Origin: an uncultured Porphyromonadaceae bacterium
Lineage (GTDB): Bacteria > Bacteroidota > Bacteroidia > Bacteroidales > Muribaculaceae
Length of the DNA stretch: 36,126 nucleotides
Direction: 5' to 3'
Assembly (NCBI GenBank): GCA_947176995.1
Contig: CAMWSY010000004.1
Coordinates: 1-36,126, forward strand
Shown: positions 1 to 22,843 of the stretch, one piece after another
How positions within the stretch are numbered: position 1 is the first letter of the stretch
Layout of the letters: the number at the start of each line of letters is the position of its first letter
The notes under the pieces: generated by a model
What the model saw: the letters and a program-made list of their open reading frames with translations, nothing else
The model's database searches: none
What the model was told of the DNA's origin: nothing
Position numbers and translations under genes: made by a program

Positions 1-1185
1 TTCCAGCGCATCATCAAGGAGAAATACGCTGCCGACATCAAGATCCTTGTCAATCACGCAAAAATCCGCAACATATACCTCGCCAAGGGTGACCTGAAGC
101 GTCTCCACGAGAACATTGCCAACGCCAACAAGGCTGCCAATCAGGAAATCGAGGAAATCAACATCTCCTCCTACGCTTCTCCCGAAGGCGGTATTGACCT
201 CAACACCCGCCTTGCCGAGAACCGCGAGAAGAACACCACGGCTTACCTCAACAAAGAGCTAAAGAAAAACAACATCTCATTCGGCGAGCTCACCGCACAG
301 TTCACCCCCGAGGACTGGGAAGGCTTCCAGAAACTCGTCGCAGCCAGCAACATTCAGGACAAAGACCTTATCCTGAGCGTTCTGTCGATGTATAAAGATC
401 CCGAGCAGCGCGAGCGTGAGATCCGCAATCTCTCCTCAGTGTTCGACAAGCTCGCCGAGGACATCCTCCCGCAGCTCCGTTACTCACGCATCACCGCCAC
501 CATCAACACCATCGGTAAGAGCGACGAAGAGATCCAGCAGGTATTTGCCACAAATCCCCGCTCACTCACCATCGACGAGATCCTCTACTGCGCCACACTC
601 ACCGACGATCCCGCGCAGAAGATGAAGATCTACACCGAGGCTGCTGCTATCTATCCCGATGACTACCGCGCCGTCAACGACCTCGGCATGGTTCAGTGGA
701 ACACCGGCGACTTCAAGGCTGCCAAAGCATCATTCGCTCAGGCTGCCCGCGTTAACCCCACCGCTCCCGAGCCCCAGATGAACCTCGGCCTCGTTTCGCT
801 CACCGAAGGTGACTATGCCGCCGCAACACAGAAATTCGGTGCTGCTGCAGGCGTGACCGAACTCGGCGAAGCCATGGGTACAGCCTATCTGCTTCAGGGC
901 GACAACGCCGCAGCCGTTCGCTCATTCGGCAACACCAAGAGCAACAACGCCGCACTCGCGCAGATCCTCACCAAGGACTATGCAAAAGCAAAATCCACTC
1001 TTGGCGGAATCCTTGCTCCTGATGCAACTACCTACTATCTCGCAGCCGTTCTCGGTGCACGCACAAAGAACGACTCGATGGTACAGAGCAATCTCCGTCA
1101 GGCAGTGAAACTCGATCCCTCGCTCAAGGCCACAGCCGCAAAGGATCTTGAATTTGCCAACTACAACCTCTCATCGATCCTCTGA
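1..1185 (+). CDS. TPR-domain secreted/outer-membrane-associated protein, 5' truncated by window start
   Basis: Frame 1 is open from base 1 (FQRIIKEKYAADIKILVNHAKIRN...) into the listed ORF 388..1185; C-terminal half has TPR-like repeats (YRAVNDLGMVQWNTGDFKAAKASFAQAARVNPTAPEPQMNLGLV). Confidence 0.8.
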   Translation, partial: FQRIIKEKYAADIKILVNHAKIRNIYLAKGDLKRLHENIANANKAANQEIEEINISSYASPEGGIDLNTRLAENREKNTTAYLNKELKKNNISFGELTAQFTPEDWEGFQKLVAASNIQDKDLILSVLSMYKDPEQREREIRNLSSVFDKLAEDILPQLRYSRITATINTIGKSDEEIQQVFATNPRSLTIDEILYCATLTDDPAQKMKIYTEAAAIYPDDYRAVNDLGMVQWNTGDFKAAKASFAQAARVNPTAPEPQMNLGLVSLTEGDYAAATQKFGAAAGVTELGEAMGTAYLLQGDNAAAVRSFGNTKSNNAALAQILTKDYAKAKSTLGGILAPDATTYYLAAVLGARTKNDSMVQSNLRQAVKLDPSLKATAAKDLEFANYNLSSIL

Positions 1186-1224
1186 TCATAGAAGAAACTG
1201 ACCGGGCTTCTGCAAATCACGGTT

Positions 1225-1260
1225 GCGGGGTGGCTCCAATCCGGAGCCGCCCCGCCTTTT
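1225..1260 (+). terminator. Rho-independent-like terminator after the TPR gene
   Basis: GGGGTGGCTCC-AATCC-GGAGCCGCCCC stem followed by GCCTTTTAT. Confidence 0.75.
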
Positions 1261-1303
1261 ATACCCCCTCCCGCGACTCCCACTCATCCTTATAGGTAAG
1301 CAT

Positions 1304-1745
1304 CTTCAAGCCCGTGAAACGGGCGTCACACGTGTCAGCACCCGGTGACCGAAGGGAACCGGGTGTAATCATGCGAAGTCACCAGAGCTGCGGAGCTGCG
1401 ACACAACTAAAAAAACTAACCGCATACTATCTTTGCGTCATCCTCCTCGCCTCATACCGTTGGCGATTTATTCCTGTTCCGTCGAAGACGGATGATTTGC
1501 ATAGCCCCATGTCGAGCGAAGCGATGGCATGGGGTAAAGGCCGTAAATATCATGCGGCCTCGACAGAGGTCGGCTAACTGACGTCTTCGACGCCATTATT
1601 CGTGTGAACCAATATACCCCACACCTTGCCGCTGAACGCGGCTCGATGTGGGGCTCGATTTAATTGCCGTCATCCGACGGCAGGAATTGGATTATCTCGT
1701 TAGCGATATGATGTTTGTAGGCCCGTATACCGCAGGTATGCGGGT
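1304..1745 (+). repeat. 442-bp intergenic hairpin-rich repeat, copy A
   Basis: Base-for-base identical to 7726-8167 (offset 6422) by direct comparison; contains several inverted repeats, e.g. GCCCGT-GAA-ACGGGC, TCCGTC-GAA-GACGGA, CCCCACACC...GATGTGGGG, CCCGTATACC-GCA-GGTATGCGGG. Confidence 0.97.
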
Positions 1746-2056
1746 TTCGGGTTGCACAACCAAGAAAATCAACCGCATAGCGGTTGGACACCTCAGCCAC
1801 CTCCCAACCCCCTCCCACCTTGCGAAAGCGCCGTGAGGCGCGCCGTTATCGTAAACCCCTGACGACCGATAGGGAGTCTGGGGAGACCACACCGCGCCCC
1901 TCCGCCCGAGCCTCGGAAAGGCGACATCCTCCCCTTCCGGCATCGCAGATGCCACAACCCGGCTAAGCCGGAGCAAAACCCCATCCTGTGAGCAAAATTG
2001 CTCACAGGATGGAGCACTAAAAGACCTAATAACCAGTCTCGCAGAGACTGAACAAC
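1746..2056. repeat. Continuation of hairpin mosaic A
   Basis: AACCGC-ATA-GCGGTT (1771-1785), GGCATC-GCA-GATGCC (1939-1953), CCGGCT-A-AGCCGG (1959-1971), CCATCCTGTGAGCAA-AA-TTGCTCACAGGATGG (1981-2012), CAGTCTC-GCA-GAGACTG (2034-2050). Confidence 0.75.
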
Positions 2057-2524
2057 CTAATCCCGCTTGATAGGAGTCACAAAAACATAGACATGCAACC
2101 CATCCTTAGCCGGAAAATTAGTGAGCAGTTCAAGCTGCTTCACATATCCCGTTGAATGCTCGCGGATATTCTCTATTATCTCCGTGTCCGATGTGCCGTC
2201 GGCATTTTCCGTTGTATGGATAACCATATCTTCGGTCACATTTGATCCGTTGAAAAAGCGGGACGCCTGCGACATTGCCTTGACCGAAGCCACACGATTG
2301 AGCGCCGACTCTGTCTTATACTTTCCCTTATCAAGTTTCACAACCGACATCAGGTAAGCATTCTCATAGTCCTCCACCGCCTTCACTCCCTCAAAAGGGG
2401 CATCCTCATACATGCGTGTCAGGAAATTGGCAAGTGCCCTCTTCTCTTGATTATAGCTCTGGCACAAAGCTACAGATGGCACTAAAAATATACCTGCGAT
2501 TATTGCTATTTTAATTAGTCTCAT
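2057..2524 (-). CDS. Small secreted protein of unknown function (~155 aa)
   Basis: ORF with signal peptide MRLIKIAIIAGIFLVPSVALC; internal ATG at 2524 preferred over the longer ORF start at 2665, which overlaps the upstream gene. Confidence 0.7.
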   Translation of the reverse strand: MRLIKIAIIAGIFLVPSVALCQSYNQEKRALANFLTRMYEDAPFEGVKAVEDYENAYLMSVVKLDKGKYKTESALNRVASVKAMSQASRFFNGSNVTEDMVIHTTENADGTSDTEIIENIREHSTGYVKQLELLTNFPAKDGLHVYVFVTPIKRD

Positions 2525-2535
2525 TATAACTGTTT

Positions 2536-3111
2536 TTATGAAGAATGAGCAGCTTGGGTGATATATACATAGTCTTCCCATATTCGTATGTGAGTTATAT
2601 AAAGGAGGTATAACATAAGAAGGATTGTGATAACCCCAAGAACAGCGATAAACGACAATATACATGGGCAGCTAAACACTTTACATCCAAATACAAGATA
2701 TAGCAGTTCTACAATTAATGCACTTCTGAGAAATGAGTATTGTGCCTCCAATATAGGGACGGAAGACCATGCATATCTTGAAGCTATATAATAAGCTTCA
2801 TAATAACTGACATTTTCTTCTATCATGCGCGCATCTTTTGTCTGAAGCAGCTTTTTATTGACGTAGTCTTTTGCTTTTGATACTAAGCATTCACGATTGC
2901 GCAATGAGCTAAATACTGCTTTTGCAACCAAATGAATCAATATCCCTACAATATAACTGATTGCAAACGTTACCACACCGAATGTCACGTCATCGTAGTG
3001 CCATGCCATCTGTTGGAAGAAGGATTGGTGAAGAAGGAATAAGACAAGATAGCCGGGGATAATCATTGAAAGCAAGTCGTATAAACTTGCCTTTGTCGAC
3101 AGAGTGCTCAT
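2536..3111 (-). CDS. Multi-pass membrane protein of unknown function
   Basis: 191-aa ORF with several hydrophobic segments (MIIPGYLVLFLLHQSFF; VTFAISYIVGILIHLV; FIAVLGVITILLMLYLLYI). Confidence 0.75.
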   Translation of the reverse strand: MSTLSTKASLYDLLSMIIPGYLVLFLLHQSFFQQMAWHYDDVTFGVVTFAISYIVGILIHLVAKAVFSSLRNRECLVSKAKDYVNKKLLQTKDARMIEENVSYYEAYYIASRYAWSSVPILEAQYSFLRSALIVELLYLVFGCKVFSCPCILSFIAVLGVITILLMLYLLYITHIRIWEDYVYITQAAHSS

Positions 3112-3113
3112 TG

Positions 3114-4514
3114 TTATTTGTGATTAGGTTCAACCCAGAATTTTGAATATTTGCTGATATCTGCTTTAGGAATATAAATGGTAAGTTCCCAGACAATTGG
3201 AGTAATTACACAATCATAAAAATCAAGATGATATAATTTAGTCCCTGGTATAATTTCAGTATAGTGATAATTAAACAATCCTGGGTTACCATATTTAAAC
3301 TTGAATACATCGTGGAATAAGCCCTCACCAAAAATCGCTGCTTCTTCTCTTTCGCTTATCATTAATATGTTGTCGTACATGGAGTTGACTCTGCGCACTA
3401 CATCGTCCCTTGTCAAAGATGCAGGATAGTAATATCGATTTAATATTTCTAAAGGATAAAAAATTGAGGTAGTACCGGTATTGTCCTTTATGACAAAATC
3501 ATTCGTTATTTCAGATGCTCGAAAGTATAGATTTTGCATCCATTTTCTTATTTCATCTTTAGAGTTCCTGAAATATTGTGTCAATCTCTTGCCTCTATGT
3601 AACTCTGAATATTCCATATTGCGTTTCCTCATGACCTCAACCTGATCTTCACTAAGTGCTAATGCATCAAGTGTATTATATATGGTTGCATATATATCAC
3701 TTATTCTATCAGGATTCCTCCATCCATCCTCCCTTTCAAATTCAGATGATGTTATGTATATAGTTAGGGGAATACTGTAATATTCCAATGCAGTCTGATC
3801 ACGTTGTGATCTCGACAGCTTCATCAGATATGAATGGGCCACACTGTCTACACTAAATTTATATCCCGTTGTGAGAGACGAGTCATAAATTGTATCATAT
3901 CTTATGCTCCAGTCATTATGGGGTTTTCTTGAGTAGCGGCTAATAAGCTTCCCACCGTCATATAAACTGTATTCTGGAAGATCTTGTGCAACAGAGGGCT
4001 CTCCGATTTCAATGTCATAATGCAGCTCATTAGGTAGCATGGCAATAACTTGATCTGTCAGGTTGTAAAGAGCCTTCAGCTCATTTTCCTTTTGCAGCTC
4101 AAGCAATTTCATCTCCATCCCGAATGTATTTCCGGCAAACTCACATTCGCTGCCATGATTCTTTGCATAAGTGATAAGATGTGGCAAGCTGACTGTTGCG
4201 GTCAGGGTTACGAAATATCCTCCCTTGCCGTCAGGAACAGACGAAACCTCAGTGTAATCTTTGATCGAGCCGTTTGACACTGTGACAATCTCATCTTTCA
4301 CCATCTCGTCATTGAGGATGGACGTGTTTGCTGAAACAAATGCGCCGTAAGTTTGCTCGATAGCGCTGCGCAGGGCGTTTTTGGTTGCTTCATCCTTGCT
4401 GGGGCCGTCCGACGAAACTGTCAGTGTCACCTCCTGTGGTTGTGTCTGAGCTTGCAGGGTGCTGCCGAACATCAGGCAGATGACTGCTGCTAAGAATAAA
4501 TGAATATGTTTCAT
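3114..4514 (-). CDS. Secreted protein of unknown function; N-terminal region resembles LPP20/FlgT-N type domain
   Basis: 466 aa, signal peptide; SSDGPSKDEATKNALRSAIEQTYGAFVSANTS is reminiscent of the G-x-G/A-x(3)-A helix of LPP20/FlgT-like domains. Confidence 0.75.
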   Translation of the reverse strand: MKHIHLFLAAVICLMFGSTLQAQTQPQEVTLTVSSDGPSKDEATKNALRSAIEQTYGAFVSANTSILNDEMVKDEIVTVSNGSIKDYTEVSSVPDGKGGYFVTLTATVSLPHLITYAKNHGSECEFAGNTFGMEMKLLELQKENELKALYNLTDQVIAMLPNELHYDIEIGEPSVAQDLPEYSLYDGGKLISRYSRKPHNDWSIRYDTIYDSSLTTGYKFSVDSVAHSYLMKLSRSQRDQTALEYYSIPLTIYITSSEFEREDGWRNPDRISDIYATIYNTLDALALSEDQVEVMRKRNMEYSELHRGKRLTQYFRNSKDEIRKWMQNLYFRASEITNDFVIKDNTGTTSIFYPLEILNRYYYPASLTRDDVVRRVNSMYDNILMISEREEAAIFGEGLFHDVFKFKYGNPGLFNYHYTEIIPGTKLYHLDFYDCVITPIVWELTIYIPKADISKYSKFWVEPNHK

Positions 4515-4674
4515 AATTTAGTTGTAATATTTGTAATTTAGAGATTCGATCTTTAAGCTTTGTCTCTAATTATCATAATTCTCTCTTCTTATTAATTGTA
4601 ATTAGCTGATTTACGGCAAAGTTGCCGGACCAAACGCAAAACTCTTTGAAACTTCGATGATACTACCGGCTGCT

Positions 4675-5286
4675 TTAACGTTTTTGAATTTCAGACAGTT
4701 TATTACGGAGATTCTCTATACGCCTTAAGTTTGCCTCGTCATTGAGGTTGTTGTAAATGAGGATCAGATAAATCAGTGCATCGTGCACGTCGGGGTTAAG
4801 TTTGTAAGCCTCTTCTAAATAAGGGGCAGCCTCGCGGAAAAGAGTAATAGCCTGCTTTTGGTAACGGATGCCCTGATACTTCTTCAATTTGGCAGCATTA
4901 TCGAGATCGATTGCTTTGTTGCAGAGCACACGACCTACGTTGTACTTATACTGGGCGTTCGACGGATCGAGATCCACAGCCTTGCGGTGGTTGGCGAGAG
5001 CGGCATCATAATTCTCAAGACACTCCTCAAGAATACCGAGCATGAAGTAAATGTTGGCGTTGTTGGGCTCTGATGCAATAGCACCTTCAAGTATCTTGCG
5101 GGCATCGTCATACTGTTTATTATCAAGCATATTGCTGATTCTAATCATAAGTTGAATGTCCTTCGGATCTTCGTTACTGTAGATTGGAAAAGCATCCTCG
5201 GCAAACGCATTTTCTGAAGTCGCATGCGTCTTATGAAAAATCATAAAACAGCAGATAACAATTGAAAATAAAATTTTAGCACTCAT
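4675..5286 (-). CDS. Secreted TPR protein
   Basis: 203 aa; TPR-like repeats (ANIYFMLGILEECLENYDAALANHRKAVDLDPSNAQYKYNVGRVL); signal peptide. Confidence 0.8.
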   Translation of the reverse strand: MSAKILFSIVICCFMIFHKTHATSENAFAEDAFPIYSNEDPKDIQLMIRISNMLDNKQYDDARKILEGAIASEPNNANIYFMLGILEECLENYDAALANHRKAVDLDPSNAQYKYNVGRVLCNKAIDLDNAAKLKKYQGIRYQKQAITLFREAAPYLEEAYKLNPDVHDALIYLILIYNNLNDEANLRRIENLRNKLSEIQKR

Positions 5287-5292
5287 AATATC

Positions 5293-6294
5293 TTAATGTT
5301 TTTTTAATATGTTAATCTGGGGCATTTCAAATTTATTTGCAAATATCTCACCGACAGAGCGACAAGCGTCAAGAACAGAGTTTTTGAACTTTACGTCATC
5401 CTCATATTTTTTCATCTTAAAATCCCATTGTCTCTTTTTCTCAGCAGCAATCTCTGCCTCTCGTTTCATCTGAAGTTCCCTTCTGTATTGTTCATCGGCC
5501 TCCAGCTTTTTGGTAATATTATGGCGTAATTCCATAACTTCCGGATAATCACTATATCTAGGATCTATTTCACTAATTAAGTCCGCCACTTCAAGGGCTG
5601 TCTCTCCTGTCTGTGATACCGCCCATTTATTTTGTGCACGACTAAGTTTAATAGCACACTCGTGATCTATTTTTTGTTGAAAGATACTTGAAGCCAGTTG
5701 ATGGCAATCTGTGTAACATACCTGACTCACTTCCGGGACAGACATTAATAGAAAGATTGCCTGATCGTATTCTCCGTTAGCTGCAAGTGTATTTGCCTTT
5801 GTCATCAATTGAGGACAGGAATTTGTATAGTAATCAAGTATTTTCTCTTTGGCCTCTGATAGTAGGGTCTTTATCTGCTGGTTTTGACCGGAAACCTTTT
5901 GAAAAGCCGTGCTGAATGCCTTGGTCTCGTTTGTACCGATGCCTGAGACGGTCATGTCACAGCTTCCGTAAACCTTGTTGTCGATCATATCCACAACTGC
6001 AAACGTGATTTCGATCTTTTGAGATATACGGGGCGGTGTGGTGGGTGCAACATCTTTCTCAAGGATATCACAATTTGCGACAAGAGCGAAACGCCCGGTT
6101 GCACGGTCATCGCCATAACCGTTTGCCGTGATCGCCTTTTGCATCTTTGCGGTCAGCATGGACGCGGCTTCGGCTGGAATCGTTGTGGAGGTTGCTATAT
6201 AAGCGCCAAGAGAGATTCGTTCTGCATCCGAAGCATAGACCGATATGGCCATGCAAAACGAGATTGCCGCCGGGATAAGTCTTATTAGAGTCAT
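5293..6294 (-). CDS. Secreted protein of unknown function, possibly with a CsgG/TolB-like N-terminal fold
   Basis: 333 aa; signal peptide; N-terminal alpha/beta pattern, charged coiled-coil segment EADEQYRRELQMKREAEIAAEKKRQWDFKMKK near the C-terminus. Confidence 0.7.
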   Translation of the reverse strand: MTLIRLIPAAISFCMAISVYASDAERISLGAYIATSTTIPAEAASMLTAKMQKAITANGYGDDRATGRFALVANCDILEKDVAPTTPPRISQKIEITFAVVDMIDNKVYGSCDMTVSGIGTNETKAFSTAFQKVSGQNQQIKTLLSEAKEKILDYYTNSCPQLMTKANTLAANGEYDQAIFLLMSVPEVSQVCYTDCHQLASSIFQQKIDHECAIKLSRAQNKWAVSQTGETALEVADLISEIDPRYSDYPEVMELRHNITKKLEADEQYRRELQMKREAEIAAEKKRQWDFKMKKYEDDVKFKNSVLDACRSVGEIFANKFEMPQINILKKH

Positions 6295-6296
6295 GA

Positions 6297-7247
6297 TTAC
6301 TTCTCTCCTAATATCAGTATTGCCTCACCAAGACCGCGCATGACGACCTTTGAAGTGATGTCGTAAGGTTGTTTCTGTAAGTATTTGCGTAATGCCGTGG
6401 CAAAAGCGCGTGCGTCCATGGCTGCCCCCTTCTGGTCAAACAGCGGAATACGTACCTGTTCAAACTGAGCGAACGTTTCGGTGCCGTCGCTGAGATTAAA
6501 GGATGAATTCACGGTGTTGTCGCGCATCCACTGTTGTATGATATCCACAAGTTCATCGTCACCATACTCTGTTTCAAGGTCATTGTCCCAACTGTCCCAA
6601 CAGCGCACAGTCAACGTGATTTCGCGGCCATTCTTCTTTTGGTCAGCATACCAGTTGTCGAGTTGCTTGTCAAAATCCTTTATGTTTTCTTTGACTGCAT
6701 TTTCCAGAGCCACAGGGATGGCATCGATCGTCGGTTTTGAATTTCCTGTAGCAGTGGCAATGCGTTTGTTGGTGTAGGCATCAAATGCCTCGAGTGTGAA
6801 CGAAACAACCCTTCCACCTTGGTCTTTTGTTATGTTCCACCACAATTGGATGATGATATCTGATTTCATGCGCCGCTTCAGTATATCAAGAGGAGTCTCA
6901 GCGATCGATGCTCCCGACGATTTACTTGAAAGCACATTATCCTCAGCCTGTTTGACTCCAAGAGATTTTATCTCCATCTCGGCATCTTTGAGGCTATATC
7001 CCATGCCGGTAAGCACCCCACCTATTTTCGATATCACCTGAGGTAGTTCAATATCCTCCGTAAAGGCACGTTGGTAATCGGGAACTTTTACCGTAGAACC
7101 CTGATTGTCGAAATTCTGTGTGAAATAGCGTTGGGTGCACCAGTTGTCACTGGGCAGAATCATCAATGTCGGCTTCTTAGCCACATCAGCATGGCAACCA
7201 ATAGACAAGCATAGACAACCCACAAGAAAAACAAGCAGTCGATACAT
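6297..7247 (-). CDS. Secreted protein of unknown function (possibly DUF6175-like)
   Basis: 316 aa; signal peptide MYRLLVFLVGCLCLSIGCHA; TLMILPSDNWCTQRYFTQNFDNQG...; family name from memory only. First gene of a tightly spaced minus-strand operon. Confidence 0.7.
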   Translation of the reverse strand: MYRLLVFLVGCLCLSIGCHADVAKKPTLMILPSDNWCTQRYFTQNFDNQGSTVKVPDYQRAFTEDIELPQVISKIGGVLTGMGYSLKDAEMEIKSLGVKQAEDNVLSSKSSGASIAETPLDILKRRMKSDIIIQLWWNITKDQGGRVVSFTLEAFDAYTNKRIATATGNSKPTIDAIPVALENAVKENIKDFDKQLDNWYADQKKNGREITLTVRCWDSWDNDLETEYGDDELVDIIQQWMRDNTVNSSFNLSDGTETFAQFEQVRIPLFDQKGAAMDARAFATALRKYLQKQPYDITSKVVMRGLGEAILILGEK

Positions 7248-7305
7248 ATTGACATATCTTTGCCGCCGGGCTCACCTCTTAGGCTAAAGTGTTGATTATT
7301 AAATC

Positions 7306-7621
7306 AAAAAAAAGCGTGAGAGCCGTACCTGTTGCCCGTTCCGCTTGTTGAGGCCTTCGCATTGCCCGGTTAGTTGAACGAGCAAACTTGCAGAGGCCTC
7401 ACGCAGAATATGTATAGTTCCGCCACAGCATGACGCTCACGCGCTGCTGTAGCGAATTAATATACATCCACATAGGCATCTACTGTTTGCTGCATTCCTG
7501 ACTAACCTGAGAAAGTTGCGAAGTTTCAACAAGCCAAGAAAGAGCGTCGAGTAAACGCTTTCCATTATGTCTGTCAACCCACCCGCATTACCCATCGTTG
7601 GGCCTCTGCCGTGTTGTCGAC
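7306..7621 (-). ncRNA. Structured RNA / leader, copy 1
   Basis: Homologous by eye to 22104-22423; starts just downstream of a Bacteroidetes promoter, ends in a GC hairpin plus 8-T tract; conserved GAGGCCT...AGGCCTC hairpin and downstream GAACGRGCAAC able to pair with its loop; protein frames not conserved between copies (1-nt indels). Confidence 0.75.
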
Positions 7622-7625
7622 GTTG

Positions 7626-7657
7626 CAAATATATTATTATTTCTCTATTTATACAAA
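7626..7657 (-). promoter_or_regulatory. Bacteroidetes sigma-type promoter of ncRNA/leader copy 1
   Basis: Minus strand: TTTG (7657-7654), 20-nt spacer, TATATTTG (7633-7626), matching TTTG/TAnnTTTG. Confidence 0.8.
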
Positions 7658-7725
7658 ATCAGATGAAATATGCAGAACGACGTGTTAGGGGCGCGCGACA
7701 GCACGCCCAAATAAGGCTGAGGGGG

Positions 7726-8167
7726 CTTCAAGCCCGTGAAACGGGCGTCACACGTGTCAGCACCCGGTGACCGAAGGGAACCGGGTGTAATCATGCGAAG
7801 TCACCAGAGCTGCGGAGCTGCGACACAACTAAAAAAACTAACCGCATACTATCTTTGCGTCATCCTCCTCGCCTCATACCGTTGGCGATTTATTCCTGTT
7901 CCGTCGAAGACGGATGATTTGCATAGCCCCATGTCGAGCGAAGCGATGGCATGGGGTAAAGGCCGTAAATATCATGCGGCCTCGACAGAGGTCGGCTAAC
8001 TGACGTCTTCGACGCCATTATTCGTGTGAACCAATATACCCCACACCTTGCCGCTGAACGCGGCTCGATGTGGGGCTCGATTTAATTGCCGTCATCCGAC
8101 GGCAGGAATTGGATTATCTCGTTAGCGATATGATGTTTGTAGGCCCGTATACCGCAGGTATGCGGGT
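7726..8167 (+). repeat. 442-bp intergenic hairpin-rich repeat, copy B (direct repeat of 1304-1745)
   Basis: Identical to copy A across 442 bp; boundary reaches the last base of the sialidase stop codon. Confidence 0.97.
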
Positions 8168-9525
8168 CACCTTGCCGAGAAACGTCCGCCGGTTATATCT
8201 TCGATACTCAGTTTCTCAAAGACTATGCAATAGTCCTTGCCGTAGGTCGATTCCTCGTATAAAAAAGCTATCGAACCGTCGGGCATCTGCACCATTGTCG
8301 AGTACCCCGACTCCATGTCGGTCAGTTTCAGGGTCTGCGATTCCATGTCGCCCCAGCCCTTTGCCATAGCTTCGGCGGTAGCATAATCGCCCTTGGCCAT
8401 AAGCGGTTTCCACTTTATCCCGACCTTCTCGCGCTCCTTCGACAGAGTCATCGACTGCAAAGCGAGCCACGCATCCCCGTTGCCGGGATTCTCCTTATCA
8501 GTAACGGGTACTATAAGTATCTCCCCGTTGCACGGATTAGGTTGCACACCACCGAAATCGCTGAGTGCCGGAGCAGATTCCCATGAGCCCGTAGCTTTGG
8601 CTGCATCGCTGTAACGGAATATGTTGAAATTACGGCCGTAGTTGGCGCTCGAGCGTGCGCTCAGCAGCACTGAGCCGTCCGGCAGCTCCTCCACCTTCGG
8701 CTCGTCACCTCCCAGTGCCACTGGAGGCATGTCGGCGCTTCCGAGCACATGCCATGTGTCGCCGAAATCATCGGAGTAAAGCACCCAGTTGGCAATGTAA
8801 GTGCCCGTGCTGTCGGTGTCGGCGGGGTTGGATACATGTCTCCCTGACAAAGCAGAGTAAAGGCGGTGATGTGTACCCGCTTTCACATGACGTGACTGCA
8901 TGATGCGGCCCGAACCGAAAAACATCGCGTCAATGCACCCGCCCGGAGCTGTTTTTTCACCATTACGGCCGTCAAATAGGCCATAGATCTCCGATGTGAT
9001 AGTATCGCGCTCAGTCCACGTTTTGCCGCCGTCGTCGCTGCGCCAGCGTGCCACTTGATTGGGATTATCCCGGCGTGCTTTGAAAAAGGGTGTGCGCCCG
9101 CACACGGCGAGAAGCACCATCTTGTCCGACTCACGGTCGGCTGCTATAGCTGCGTCGCCATAGCCGCAGTCGGGATGCTGCATCGACGTCTCTACAGTTC
9201 CCTCCCCGTTACCTTGGCTCACGGCATTGCCATGCGCGTCGGTCAGCAGTGCCGGGGTGCTCCATGTCCTCCCTCCGTCGGCCGATATCGACTCATGCAG
9301 GTCGATGCGTCCGTTGCCTATGTCGTAACCGCAGAAACGGTAATCGGCAATGGCGACCAGACGCCCGTCGCGGGTCGATGCTATTGCCGGAATGCGGTAC
9401 ACGATGCTGTCGCCGTTGCCCGATCCATAGCTGAATATCACCTTGCGGTTCTCGGCATCTGCGTCATTTCCTGAAAACATTGATGCCACAGTCAGTGCTA
9501 TGACCGATATGATGCTCTTTGTCAT
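8167..9525 (-). CDS. nanH: Exo-alpha-sialidase (GH33)
   Basis: 452 aa; YRIP motif, Asp-boxes SADGGRTW, SDDGGKTW, SDDFGDTW; signal peptide. Confidence 0.92.
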   Translation of the reverse strand: MTKSIISVIALTVASMFSGNDADAENRKVIFSYGSGNGDSIVYRIPAIASTRDGRLVAIADYRFCGYDIGNGRIDLHESISADGGRTWSTPALLTDAHGNAVSQGNGEGTVETSMQHPDCGYGDAAIAADRESDKMVLLAVCGRTPFFKARRDNPNQVARWRSDDGGKTWTERDTITSEIYGLFDGRNGEKTAPGGCIDAMFFGSGRIMQSRHVKAGTHHRLYSALSGRHVSNPADTDSTGTYIANWVLYSDDFGDTWHVLGSADMPPVALGGDEPKVEELPDGSVLLSARSSANYGRNFNIFRYSDAAKATGSWESAPALSDFGGVQPNPCNGEILIVPVTDKENPGNGDAWLALQSMTLSKEREKVGIKWKPLMAKGDYATAEAMAKGWGDMESQTLKLTDMESGYSTMVQMPDGSIAFLYEESTYGKDYCIVFEKLSIEDITGGRFSAR

Positions 9526-21844: not shown

Positions 21845-22044
21845 ATCCTTAGGCCGTGAACGGGCGTCACAACCGCCGGCACCGGGTGACTGAAGGGAAC
21901 CCGGTGAGAACATGTATATTATTATTGAGCTGCGGAGCCGCGAAACACAGACATAAACCGGAGATCCCAGTGCGAGTGTAACCGGCAATTAACACCAATC
22001 CCCACACCGTTGCTGCTGAACGCAGCCCGATGTGGGGATTACCT
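21845..22044 (+). repeat. Hairpin mosaic C, diverged relative of copies A/B
   Basis: GCCGTGAACGGGCGTCAC, CACCGGGTGACTGAAGGGAACCCGGTG, GAGCTGCGGAGCCGCGAAACAC, CCCCACACCGTTGCTGCTGAACGCAGCCCGATGTGGGG in the same order as in A/B. Confidence 0.8.
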
Positions 22045-22066
22045 TATTCTTTCTATTTCACCTGAT

Positions 22067-22098
22067 TTTGTGCAAATAGGAAAATAATAATATCTTTG
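22067..22098 (+). promoter_or_regulatory. Bacteroidetes sigma-type promoter of ncRNA/leader copy 2
   Basis: TTTG (22067-22070), 20-nt spacer, TATCTTTG (22091-22098). Confidence 0.82.
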
Positions 22099-22103
22099 CA
22101 ACG

Positions 22104-22423
22104 TCGACAACACAGCAGAGGCCCGACGACGGGTAATGCGGGTGGGGTTGACAGACATAATAGAAAGCGTTTACTTGACGCTCTTTCTTGGCTTTCTGAA
22201 ACTTCGCAAATTTCAATCTCAGTCAAGAATGCAGCAAACAGTAGATGCCTTGTGGATATGTGTATATATATTCCGTCGACGGCTGCGCGCGAGCGTGGCT
22301 CTCGGCGCGTATATCTCATATTCTGCGTGAGGCCTCTGCACGTTTGCTCGTTCTACTGAGATGGGCAGTGCGAAGGCCTCAGAAAGCGGAACGAGCAACA
22401 GGTAAAGTTCCTCGCGCTTTTTT
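22104..22423 (+). ncRNA. Structured RNA / leader, copy 2
   Basis: Homologous by eye to minus-strand 7621-7306; GAGGCCTCTGCAC...GTGCGAAGGCCTC hairpin, GAACGAGCAAC complementary to its loop GTTTGCTCGTTC; ends CGCGCTTTTTT. Confidence 0.75.
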
Positions 22424-22480
22424 GTATAATCACACTTTTATCGCCAAGGTTGGGGAACTCTGCGGCAACCATACATCAAT

Positions 22481-22843
22481 ATGAAAAAAATTTTAATAGC
22501 ATCTGCAGCATCCTTGTTATTGCTTGCGACAAGCTGTGGTGTATCTCGTCAGGCCACTGACAACCGTAACATTACTCAAACAGAGGTCGTACTTGCCAAG
22601 AAAAACTACAAAGTAGTCGGCATGGTTTCAGGTGAATCCAAACAAAACTATTGGTTAGGATTTGGTGGTCTTTCAAAGAAGTCTCTTGGAGAATCTGCGA
22701 TGTCTGATATGTACAAGAATGCTAATCTTAAAGGATCTCAGGCGATCATCAACGTCAATGTATCTTACAAGGATAAGTTTATCTTGATTCATAATCAGGC
22801 TAAGGCCATTGCAACCGGTACAGTCGTCGAATTCATAGACTAA
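22481..22843 (+). CDS. Small lipoprotein of unknown function
   Basis: 120 aa; lipobox LLLLATSC; KGSQAIINVNVSYKDKF. Confidence 0.8.
   Translation: MKKILIASAASLLLLATSCGVSRQATDNRNITQTEVVLAKKNYKVVGMVSGESKQNYWLGFGGLSKKSLGESAMSDMYKNANLKGSQAIINVNVSYKDKFILIHNQAKAIATGTVVEFID

Follow-up and report, generated by a model that had tools for sequence, protein, structure and literature searches.

The window, i.e., the whole stretch of 36,126 nt that was analysed, holds two copies of one arrangement running from a promoter to a start codon, at 7670-7245 on the minus strand and at 22053-22483 on the plus strand, exactly where an earlier note had placed them. The copies align nearly end to end (BLAST 81-83% identity over 385-430 nt, E ~1e-103), and both contain an exact TTTG-N20-TATnTTTG element (7654/7633-7626 and 22070/22091-22098), which we take to be a Bacteroidetes-type promoter. 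The genes behind them are indeed unrelated, one belonging to PF19672 (DUF6175) and the other to PF20205 (DUF6567). The claim of a duplication is thus correct but too narrow, because the host genome, a 1.8-Mb assembly that is 71% complete, carries four copies rather than two. No tRNA or tmRNA was found in the window. A palindromic intergenic repeat (CCGGTTCCCTTCGGTCACCGGGTG and relatives) is located upstream of both leader promoters, at ~7736-7790 and 21880-21905. The features of copy 1 are the following, where A, A*, D, and g denote pairing strands and b, c, and d variable loops.

7626-7662, minus: promoter, -33 TTTG and -7 box TATATTTG, spacing 20 (from sequence)
7573-7621, minus: 5′ domain with strand A (GCAGAGGCC, 7601-7609), complementary to D; A:D covaries, the domain is variable outside the family
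7543-7559, minus: local hairpin AGCGUUUACUCGACGCU with U-rich tail, terminator- or pause-like; its 5′ arm is also the base strand of the long hairpin
7495-7540, minus: hairpin I, conserved stem UUCUUGGC:GUCAGGAA, inner GAAA:UUUC, variable loops b, c, and d (covariation)
7475-7491, minus: AGCAAAC and A* (GUAGAUGCC), alternative partners of the hairpin II stem and strand D
7406-7471, minus: variable hairpin with a closing helix of the GGAUAUG:CAUAUUC type
7390-7404, minus: strand g+D (GCGUGAGGCCUCUGC); g pairs with CUCACGC, D with A or A* (column pairs 210:289 and 135:210)
7332-7385, minus: hairpin II, stem UUGCUCGUUC:GAACGGGCAA, inner GGGC:GCCU, loops complementary to the hairpin I loops
7306-7320, minus: CUCACGC stem arm and U-tract, putative conditional terminator (covarying stem, U-run)
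7269-7324, minus: post-U-tract helix, arms 7318-7324 and 7269-7276, incompatible with the terminator stem (column pairs 286:334 and 287:333)
6297-7247, minus: downstream gene, 316 aa, DUF6175 (E 4e-104), signal-peptide-like start

For copy 2, on the opposite strand, the features are the following.

22062-22098, plus: promoter TTTG-N20-TATCTTTG
22103-22152, plus: 5′ domain, strand A at 22115-22123
22166-22182, plus: local terminator- or pause-like hairpin
22185-22229, plus: hairpin I
22233-22249, plus: AGCAAAC and A* (GUAGAUGCC)
22325-22339, plus: strand g+D
22344-22398, plus: hairpin II
22411-22424, plus: terminator arm CUCGCGC and U-tract
22406-22459, plus: post-U-tract helix, arms 22406-22413 and 22450-22459 (AGUUCC:GGAACU; from sequence)
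22481-22843, plus: downstream gene, 120 aa, lipoprotein-like start, DUF6567 (E 2e-36)

As judged from sequence comparison, the duplicated stretch is a member of an uncatalogued leader RNA family of ~330 nt, followed by a ~50-nt spacer to the gene and spread order-wide in Bacteroidales. The suggestion that it might belong to Bacteroidales-1 or a 6S-like family is not supported. Searches against Rfam 15, which includes Bacteroidales-1 (RF01693) and 6S/6S-Flavo, at the gathering, E ≤ 1, and E ≤ 10 settings identified no known family. The window gave no match at E ≤ 1, and the leader searched alone gave 11-bit chance hits (best 11.5 bits against a cutoff of 55). Nine distant leader loci likewise gave nothing in Rfam apart from a tRNA, and no known family with the fold of the leader was found. 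In the literature we found no description of the RNA, which might be contained in the supplements of earlier catalogues, such as the human-microbiome RNA candidates of PMC8040213. A transposable element with target duplication is not favoured, as the conserved unit appears to extend from the -33/-7 promoter to the start codon.

Within the same family, DNA similarity reveals the element in 109 of 149 genomes. With a covariance model built on the 3′ portion of the leader (R1, 107 positions), homologues were identified in 42 of 344 sampled Bacteroidales genomes from many families, with E-values down to 6e-17 outside its own family and 1-8 copies per genome, counts that are lower bounds for draft genomes. 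In a 297-genome sample of the phylum, the only match was in the window's own genome, and none of the other Bacteroidota genomes in that sample gave evidence for presence outside Bacteroidales, with filters that lose weak matches. Named hosts among the matches listed are Phocaeicola oris, Paraprevotella xylaniphila, Xylanibacter caecicola, Xylanibacter rodentium, and Palleniella muris, together with many Prevotella, Bacteroides, and Muribaculaceae assemblies. A few matching records bear the names Clostridiales, Lachnospiraceae, or Pseudoflavonifractor, probably in error, because at least one such contig has the same length as an own-family contig (both of 1,777,766 bases). The 80 named-genome loci were picked by an exact pattern over parts of hairpin II, so that the invariance of this hairpin is partly imposed. 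A phage origin was also considered and rejected, the RNA occurring in 1 of the 18 viral contigs that match a loose pattern. In this contig (IMGVR_UViG_3300021319_000137, L301), the leader at 532-635 precedes an EF-Tu-like gene of 577 aa, and the gene run at 648-9254, which includes a HerA-like ATPase, resembles a defence-type operon.

The position of the element relative to genes is highly regular. In 168 of 185 non-redundant instances, it is followed by a co-oriented ORF whose ATG lies a median of 57 nt beyond the model (10-90% range 43-111), several of the 17 exceptions being instances cut by contig ends. The element thus lies on the same strand as the gene, upstream of it, at a fixed spacing, and with a structure backed by covariation, as is expected for a cis-regulatory 5′ leader. 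The TAnnTTTG box is found at the start of the leader in 141 of the 168 cases, and at the promoter place in ~95% of the 92 family members (column counts), while only 4 of the 168 have it between the U-tract and the ATG. This distribution indicates that the element is a 5′ leader and that the gene depends on readthrough of the U-tract. Of the two possibilities left in the earlier note, the long 5′ leader is therefore retained, also on account of a covarying U-tract-spanning helix, and a purely trans-acting RNA is disfavoured. The layout of 5′ end, terminator, and ATG described there is likewise kept, with the addition that conservation runs beyond the U-tract up to the start codon.

The two copies have minimum free energies of -135.7 and -149.5 kcal/mol (z of -7.6 and -9.8 relative to shuffled sequence). 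Covariation was analysed in 92 family members and in 185 order-wide instances, and the stems fixed by the search pattern were rechecked on 23 distant hits found by the model only. In the 185-instance alignment, each helix tested pairs above all 200 shuffles and all slid registers. The A:D helix, in which strand A is GCAGARGCC, is largely restricted to the own family and was examined in the 92-member set, where 89:300 covaries and is 96% paired. Order-wide, hairpin I has the stem UUCUUGAC:GUCAAGAA with the inner GAAA:UUUC, and hairpin II the stem UUGCUCGUUC:GAACGAGCAA with the inner GGGC:GCCU. The helix GCGUGAG:CUCACGC formed by g and its partner g′ precedes the U-tract and is 99% paired (210:289, rank 22). 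A* (GUAGAUGCC) pairs with D (GGCUUCUGC), with an extension at 135:210 of rank 42, and the AGCAAC:GUUGCU and base AAAGCGU:ACGCUUU helices have ranks 97 and 99, respectively. The local AGCGU:ACGCU hairpin with its U-rich tail was detected by a terminator scan; the motif AGCGUUUACU(C/U)GACGCU followed by CUUUCUUGG at 7543-7559 and 22166-22182 is near-invariant, lies early in the leader, and has a pause- or terminator-like look. Summed over all helices, G-U cells outnumber A-C mismatches by 1526 to 270, which argues that the transcript rather than the DNA duplex is conserved and, together with the covariation, supports the view that conservation concerns RNA and not protein. For helices b, c, and d alone, the two counts are nearly equal (88 to 71).

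Many of these pairings exclude each other. CUCACGC has three possible partners (g, the 5′ base strand, and the arm after the U-tract), D has two (A and A*), and for the 5′ arm of hairpin II the choice is between AGCAAC and its own 3′ arm; each alternative is supported. Between promoter and gene there are thus a stem and a U-run (median 6) and conserved helices that are mutually exclusive, g:g′ against both the A*:D extension and the post-U-tract helix, to which terminator and antiterminator roles are here assigned by inference. The U-tract-spanning helix is of the GGCUCUC:GNGAGCC type. Its pairs 286:334 and 287:333 rank 27 and 36 of ~62,000 column pairs, it has 193 double-change cells, and its pairing was reached in 0 of 200 shuffles. 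Since this helix covaries, the RNA past the U-tract belongs to the structure.

The same helix could suggest that the leader controls translation or mRNA stability instead, by shaping access to the start codon or protecting the transcript, the U-tract being a mere single-stranded linker. The tight distance to the ATG would fit, as would a covarying GCC:GGC pair directly upstream of it. However, a U-run present throughout the family right after a conserved G+C-rich stem exceeds what a linker needs, and we consider this explanation quite unlikely.

The strongest covariation of all is that of helices b, c, and d, formed between the loops (internal and apical) of hairpin I and those of hairpin II, ~160 nt apart. 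These helices occupy ranks 1-13, 15, and 17 of ~62,000 column pairs, off-register neighbours aside. The loop sequences form a variable code, of which 92 leaders carry 79 different combinations. When leaders of orthologous genes are compared (proteins 61-88% identical), 37-77% of the code positions differ, against mostly 7-14% in the remaining core, as exemplified by pairs with 15/30 against 12/162 and 23/30 against 12/169 differences. The exceptions are L154/L205, an identical recent copy, and L170/L173 and L133/L234, which are more diverged pairs. A natural case of code turnover is provided by L103 and L113, paralogous leader-plus-gene units of one genome with 88% identical proteins and wholly different codes. 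In another contig (L071), inverted leader copies at 1472-1883 and 4124-3713, ~2 kb apart, have the same code, the second being degraded in hairpin II. The b-c and c-d codes are statistically associated. Sharing of codes through relatedness or conversion of whole leaders was considered and not adopted, as the identity of inner hairpins and flanks is hardly higher when a code is shared.

At the 18 variable positions, complementarity is 97.5% in cis and 62% between paralogues of one genome, so that trans pairing of paralogues was discarded. These values bear on the proposal that the element is a paralogous trans-acting sRNA ending at the U-tract, with the neighbouring gene read only by leakage. 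Such multi-copy families exist in Bacteroides (FopS, 14 members, PMC11697453), the strong promoter-like box and the terminator-like end are in line with it, and a terminated leader of ~310 nt could double as an sRNA. The loops match in cis only, however, and conservation and covariation persist beyond the U-tract towards the ATG, which makes this proposal improbable. It is very hard to favour a homo-oligomer of the ROOL/GOLLD/OLE style, in which hairpin I would kiss hairpin II of another molecule from the same locus and orthogonal codes would separate paralogues. Fast-turnover complementarity between loops would be expected for it, and large homo-oligomers of bacterial RNA are known (PMC12286853), but cis pairing accounts for the covariation equally well, and code sharing among the copies of one genome is at the level expected by chance (b, c, and d are shared in 2, 13, and 3 of 52 pairs, versus 2.1, 11.5, and 3.1 expected), which led us to reject avoidance of shared codes.

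Both the stems within the hairpins and the loop helices between them covary. A nested long hairpin predicts the same loop pairs, so the covariation fits a paranemic kissing pair and one long hairpin alike. Nearest-neighbour energies give the long nested hairpin as the lowest-energy fold (-152.8/-159.5 kcal/mol), the two-hairpin fold being at -115.1/-133.7 kcal/mol. Because the latter, 26-38 kcal/mol higher, leaves out ~22 loop-loop pairs, the two folds could be near balance. A tentative further step, which we regard as possible rather than probable, is that the leader is a natural paranemic RNA, in which an apical kiss, along with two helices between internal loops, would hold parallel hairpins together. 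The fast-turnover code would then act as a locus-specific lock for self-recognition that restricts switching to cis, in a module found across the order in front of surface, capsule, and defence genes. No natural paranemic RNA was found in the literature searched, PMC10376919 describing a designed motif.

The downstream genes are diverse, with 60 unrelated Pfam families represented among 143 proteins. They include BspA-type LRR proteins (10), BACON, Ig-like, and PEGA domains, outer-membrane barrels, DUF6567, two UpxY-type antiterminators, two Snf2/HKD anti-phage helicases, and one type III methyltransferase. Signal-peptide-like starts are found in 65% of the ORFs behind leaders and in 43% of neighbouring ORFs (Fisher p 8e-7, simple heuristic). 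The targets therefore do not fall into one pathway or transport class, which would be odd for a metabolite switch. The leaders L169 and L219 apparently precede the two UpxY/LoaP-type NusG paralogues, of the kind that opens Bacteroides capsule operons. L185, L221, and L251 precede short proteins with similar twin-arginine-like starts, and three downstream proteins, probably these, match a Cys-Xaa-Xaa-Xaa repeat family of radical-SAM targets.

The nature of these genes also brings to mind processive antitermination, in which the leader would recruit a NusG-like protein of the UpxY/LoaP type or act on RNA polymerase, such that the U-tract and later terminators in long foreign genes are passed. 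Long LRR adhesins, the two UpxY-type genes, defence helicases, and restriction resemble the genes served by RfaH/UpxY; the LoaP leader likewise has an RNA hairpin and a terminator together with a pause site (PMC12691694), and in capsule operons UpxY keeps transcription from ending prematurely within the untranslated region (PMC7315117). The one small hairpin of LoaP, on the other hand, leaves the hypervariable complementary loops and the start-codon-adjacent helix unexplained, and in an unsystematic look no general partner protein was noticed near the leaders. We consider this mechanism unlikely.

The reading we prefer, to which we assign a probability of about 0.5, is that of a cis-acting 5′ leader family in which every copy has its own promoter and controls the one accessory gene or operon that follows, through strand-exchange transcription attenuation. 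Attenuation by strand exchange is proposed because so many pairings exclude each other; the family, the helices, their exclusions, and the leader position come from the comparisons above, to which termination and the direction of control are added by inference. Hairpin I would form first and hairpin II later. In the OFF state, g (GCGUGAG) would pair with CUCACGC beside the U-tract to give an intrinsic terminator, assisted in some lineages by the capture of D by strand A of the 5′ domain. In the ON state, D and the 5′ arm of hairpin II would pair with A* and AGCAAC, whereupon sequestration of g begins and the polymerase may read through; the U-tract-spanning helix, just before the start codon, would then dismantle the stem of the terminator. 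In both folds, the geometry would be fixed by pairing between the variable loops of the two hairpins, whether these form a paranemic kissing pair or a single long hairpin. Which fold terminates is a guess, since both put some stem beside the U-tract, and the A:D part is not general, since the 5′ domain is variable or near-absent in some families. No conserved sensor was identified in the leaders.

Bacteroidales are dominant in the mammalian gut. In their best-mapped member, most 5′ UTRs are short, with a median of 32 nt (PMC7366714). For these two reasons, a conserved leader family of ~330 nt across the order would constitute a major unrecognised regulatory layer. A single RNA mechanism would then connect genes for adhesins, outer-membrane proteins, capsule antiterminators, and phage defence. 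The compensated fast turnover of the loops raises the testable question of why they keep changing while the rest is fixed, and the leader is a candidate natural counterpart of engineered paranemic RNA.

Several known systems share parts of this design. The FopS/GibS sRNAs (PMC11697453) are likewise multi-copy paralogous RNAs of Bacteroidales; compared by description, FopS are free sRNAs that act on susC mRNAs through an R1 seed, whereas in the present family a fixed spacer connects the RNA to its gene. ROOL, GOLLD, and OLE (PMC12286853) are also large ornate RNAs with loop-loop contacts but are reported as homo-oligomeric complexes, in contrast to a start-codon-adjacent leader whose loops match in cis. 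Designed paranemic (PX) motifs (Afonin, Cieply, and Leontis 2008, as cited in PMC10376919) alternate stems within and helices between parallel hairpins in a similar way; those are engineered, while the present arrangement would follow from covariation alone. With the LoaP (dfn/mln) and UpxY capsule leaders, the family has in common a long leader, an early pause- or terminator-like hairpin, and a terminator before accessory operons, two of the present leaders preceding UpxY-type genes; here the small UNCG hairpin is not recognised, the conserved fold is far larger, and many targets are unrelated to capsules. In layout, the family resembles attenuation leaders and riboswitch expression platforms in general, with a promoter, a structured leader, a stem with U-tract, mutually exclusive helices, and a gene. 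In place of a short aptamer, however, most of the ~330 nt is conserved here, two large hairpins are joined by their loops, and the targets are without a common pathway.
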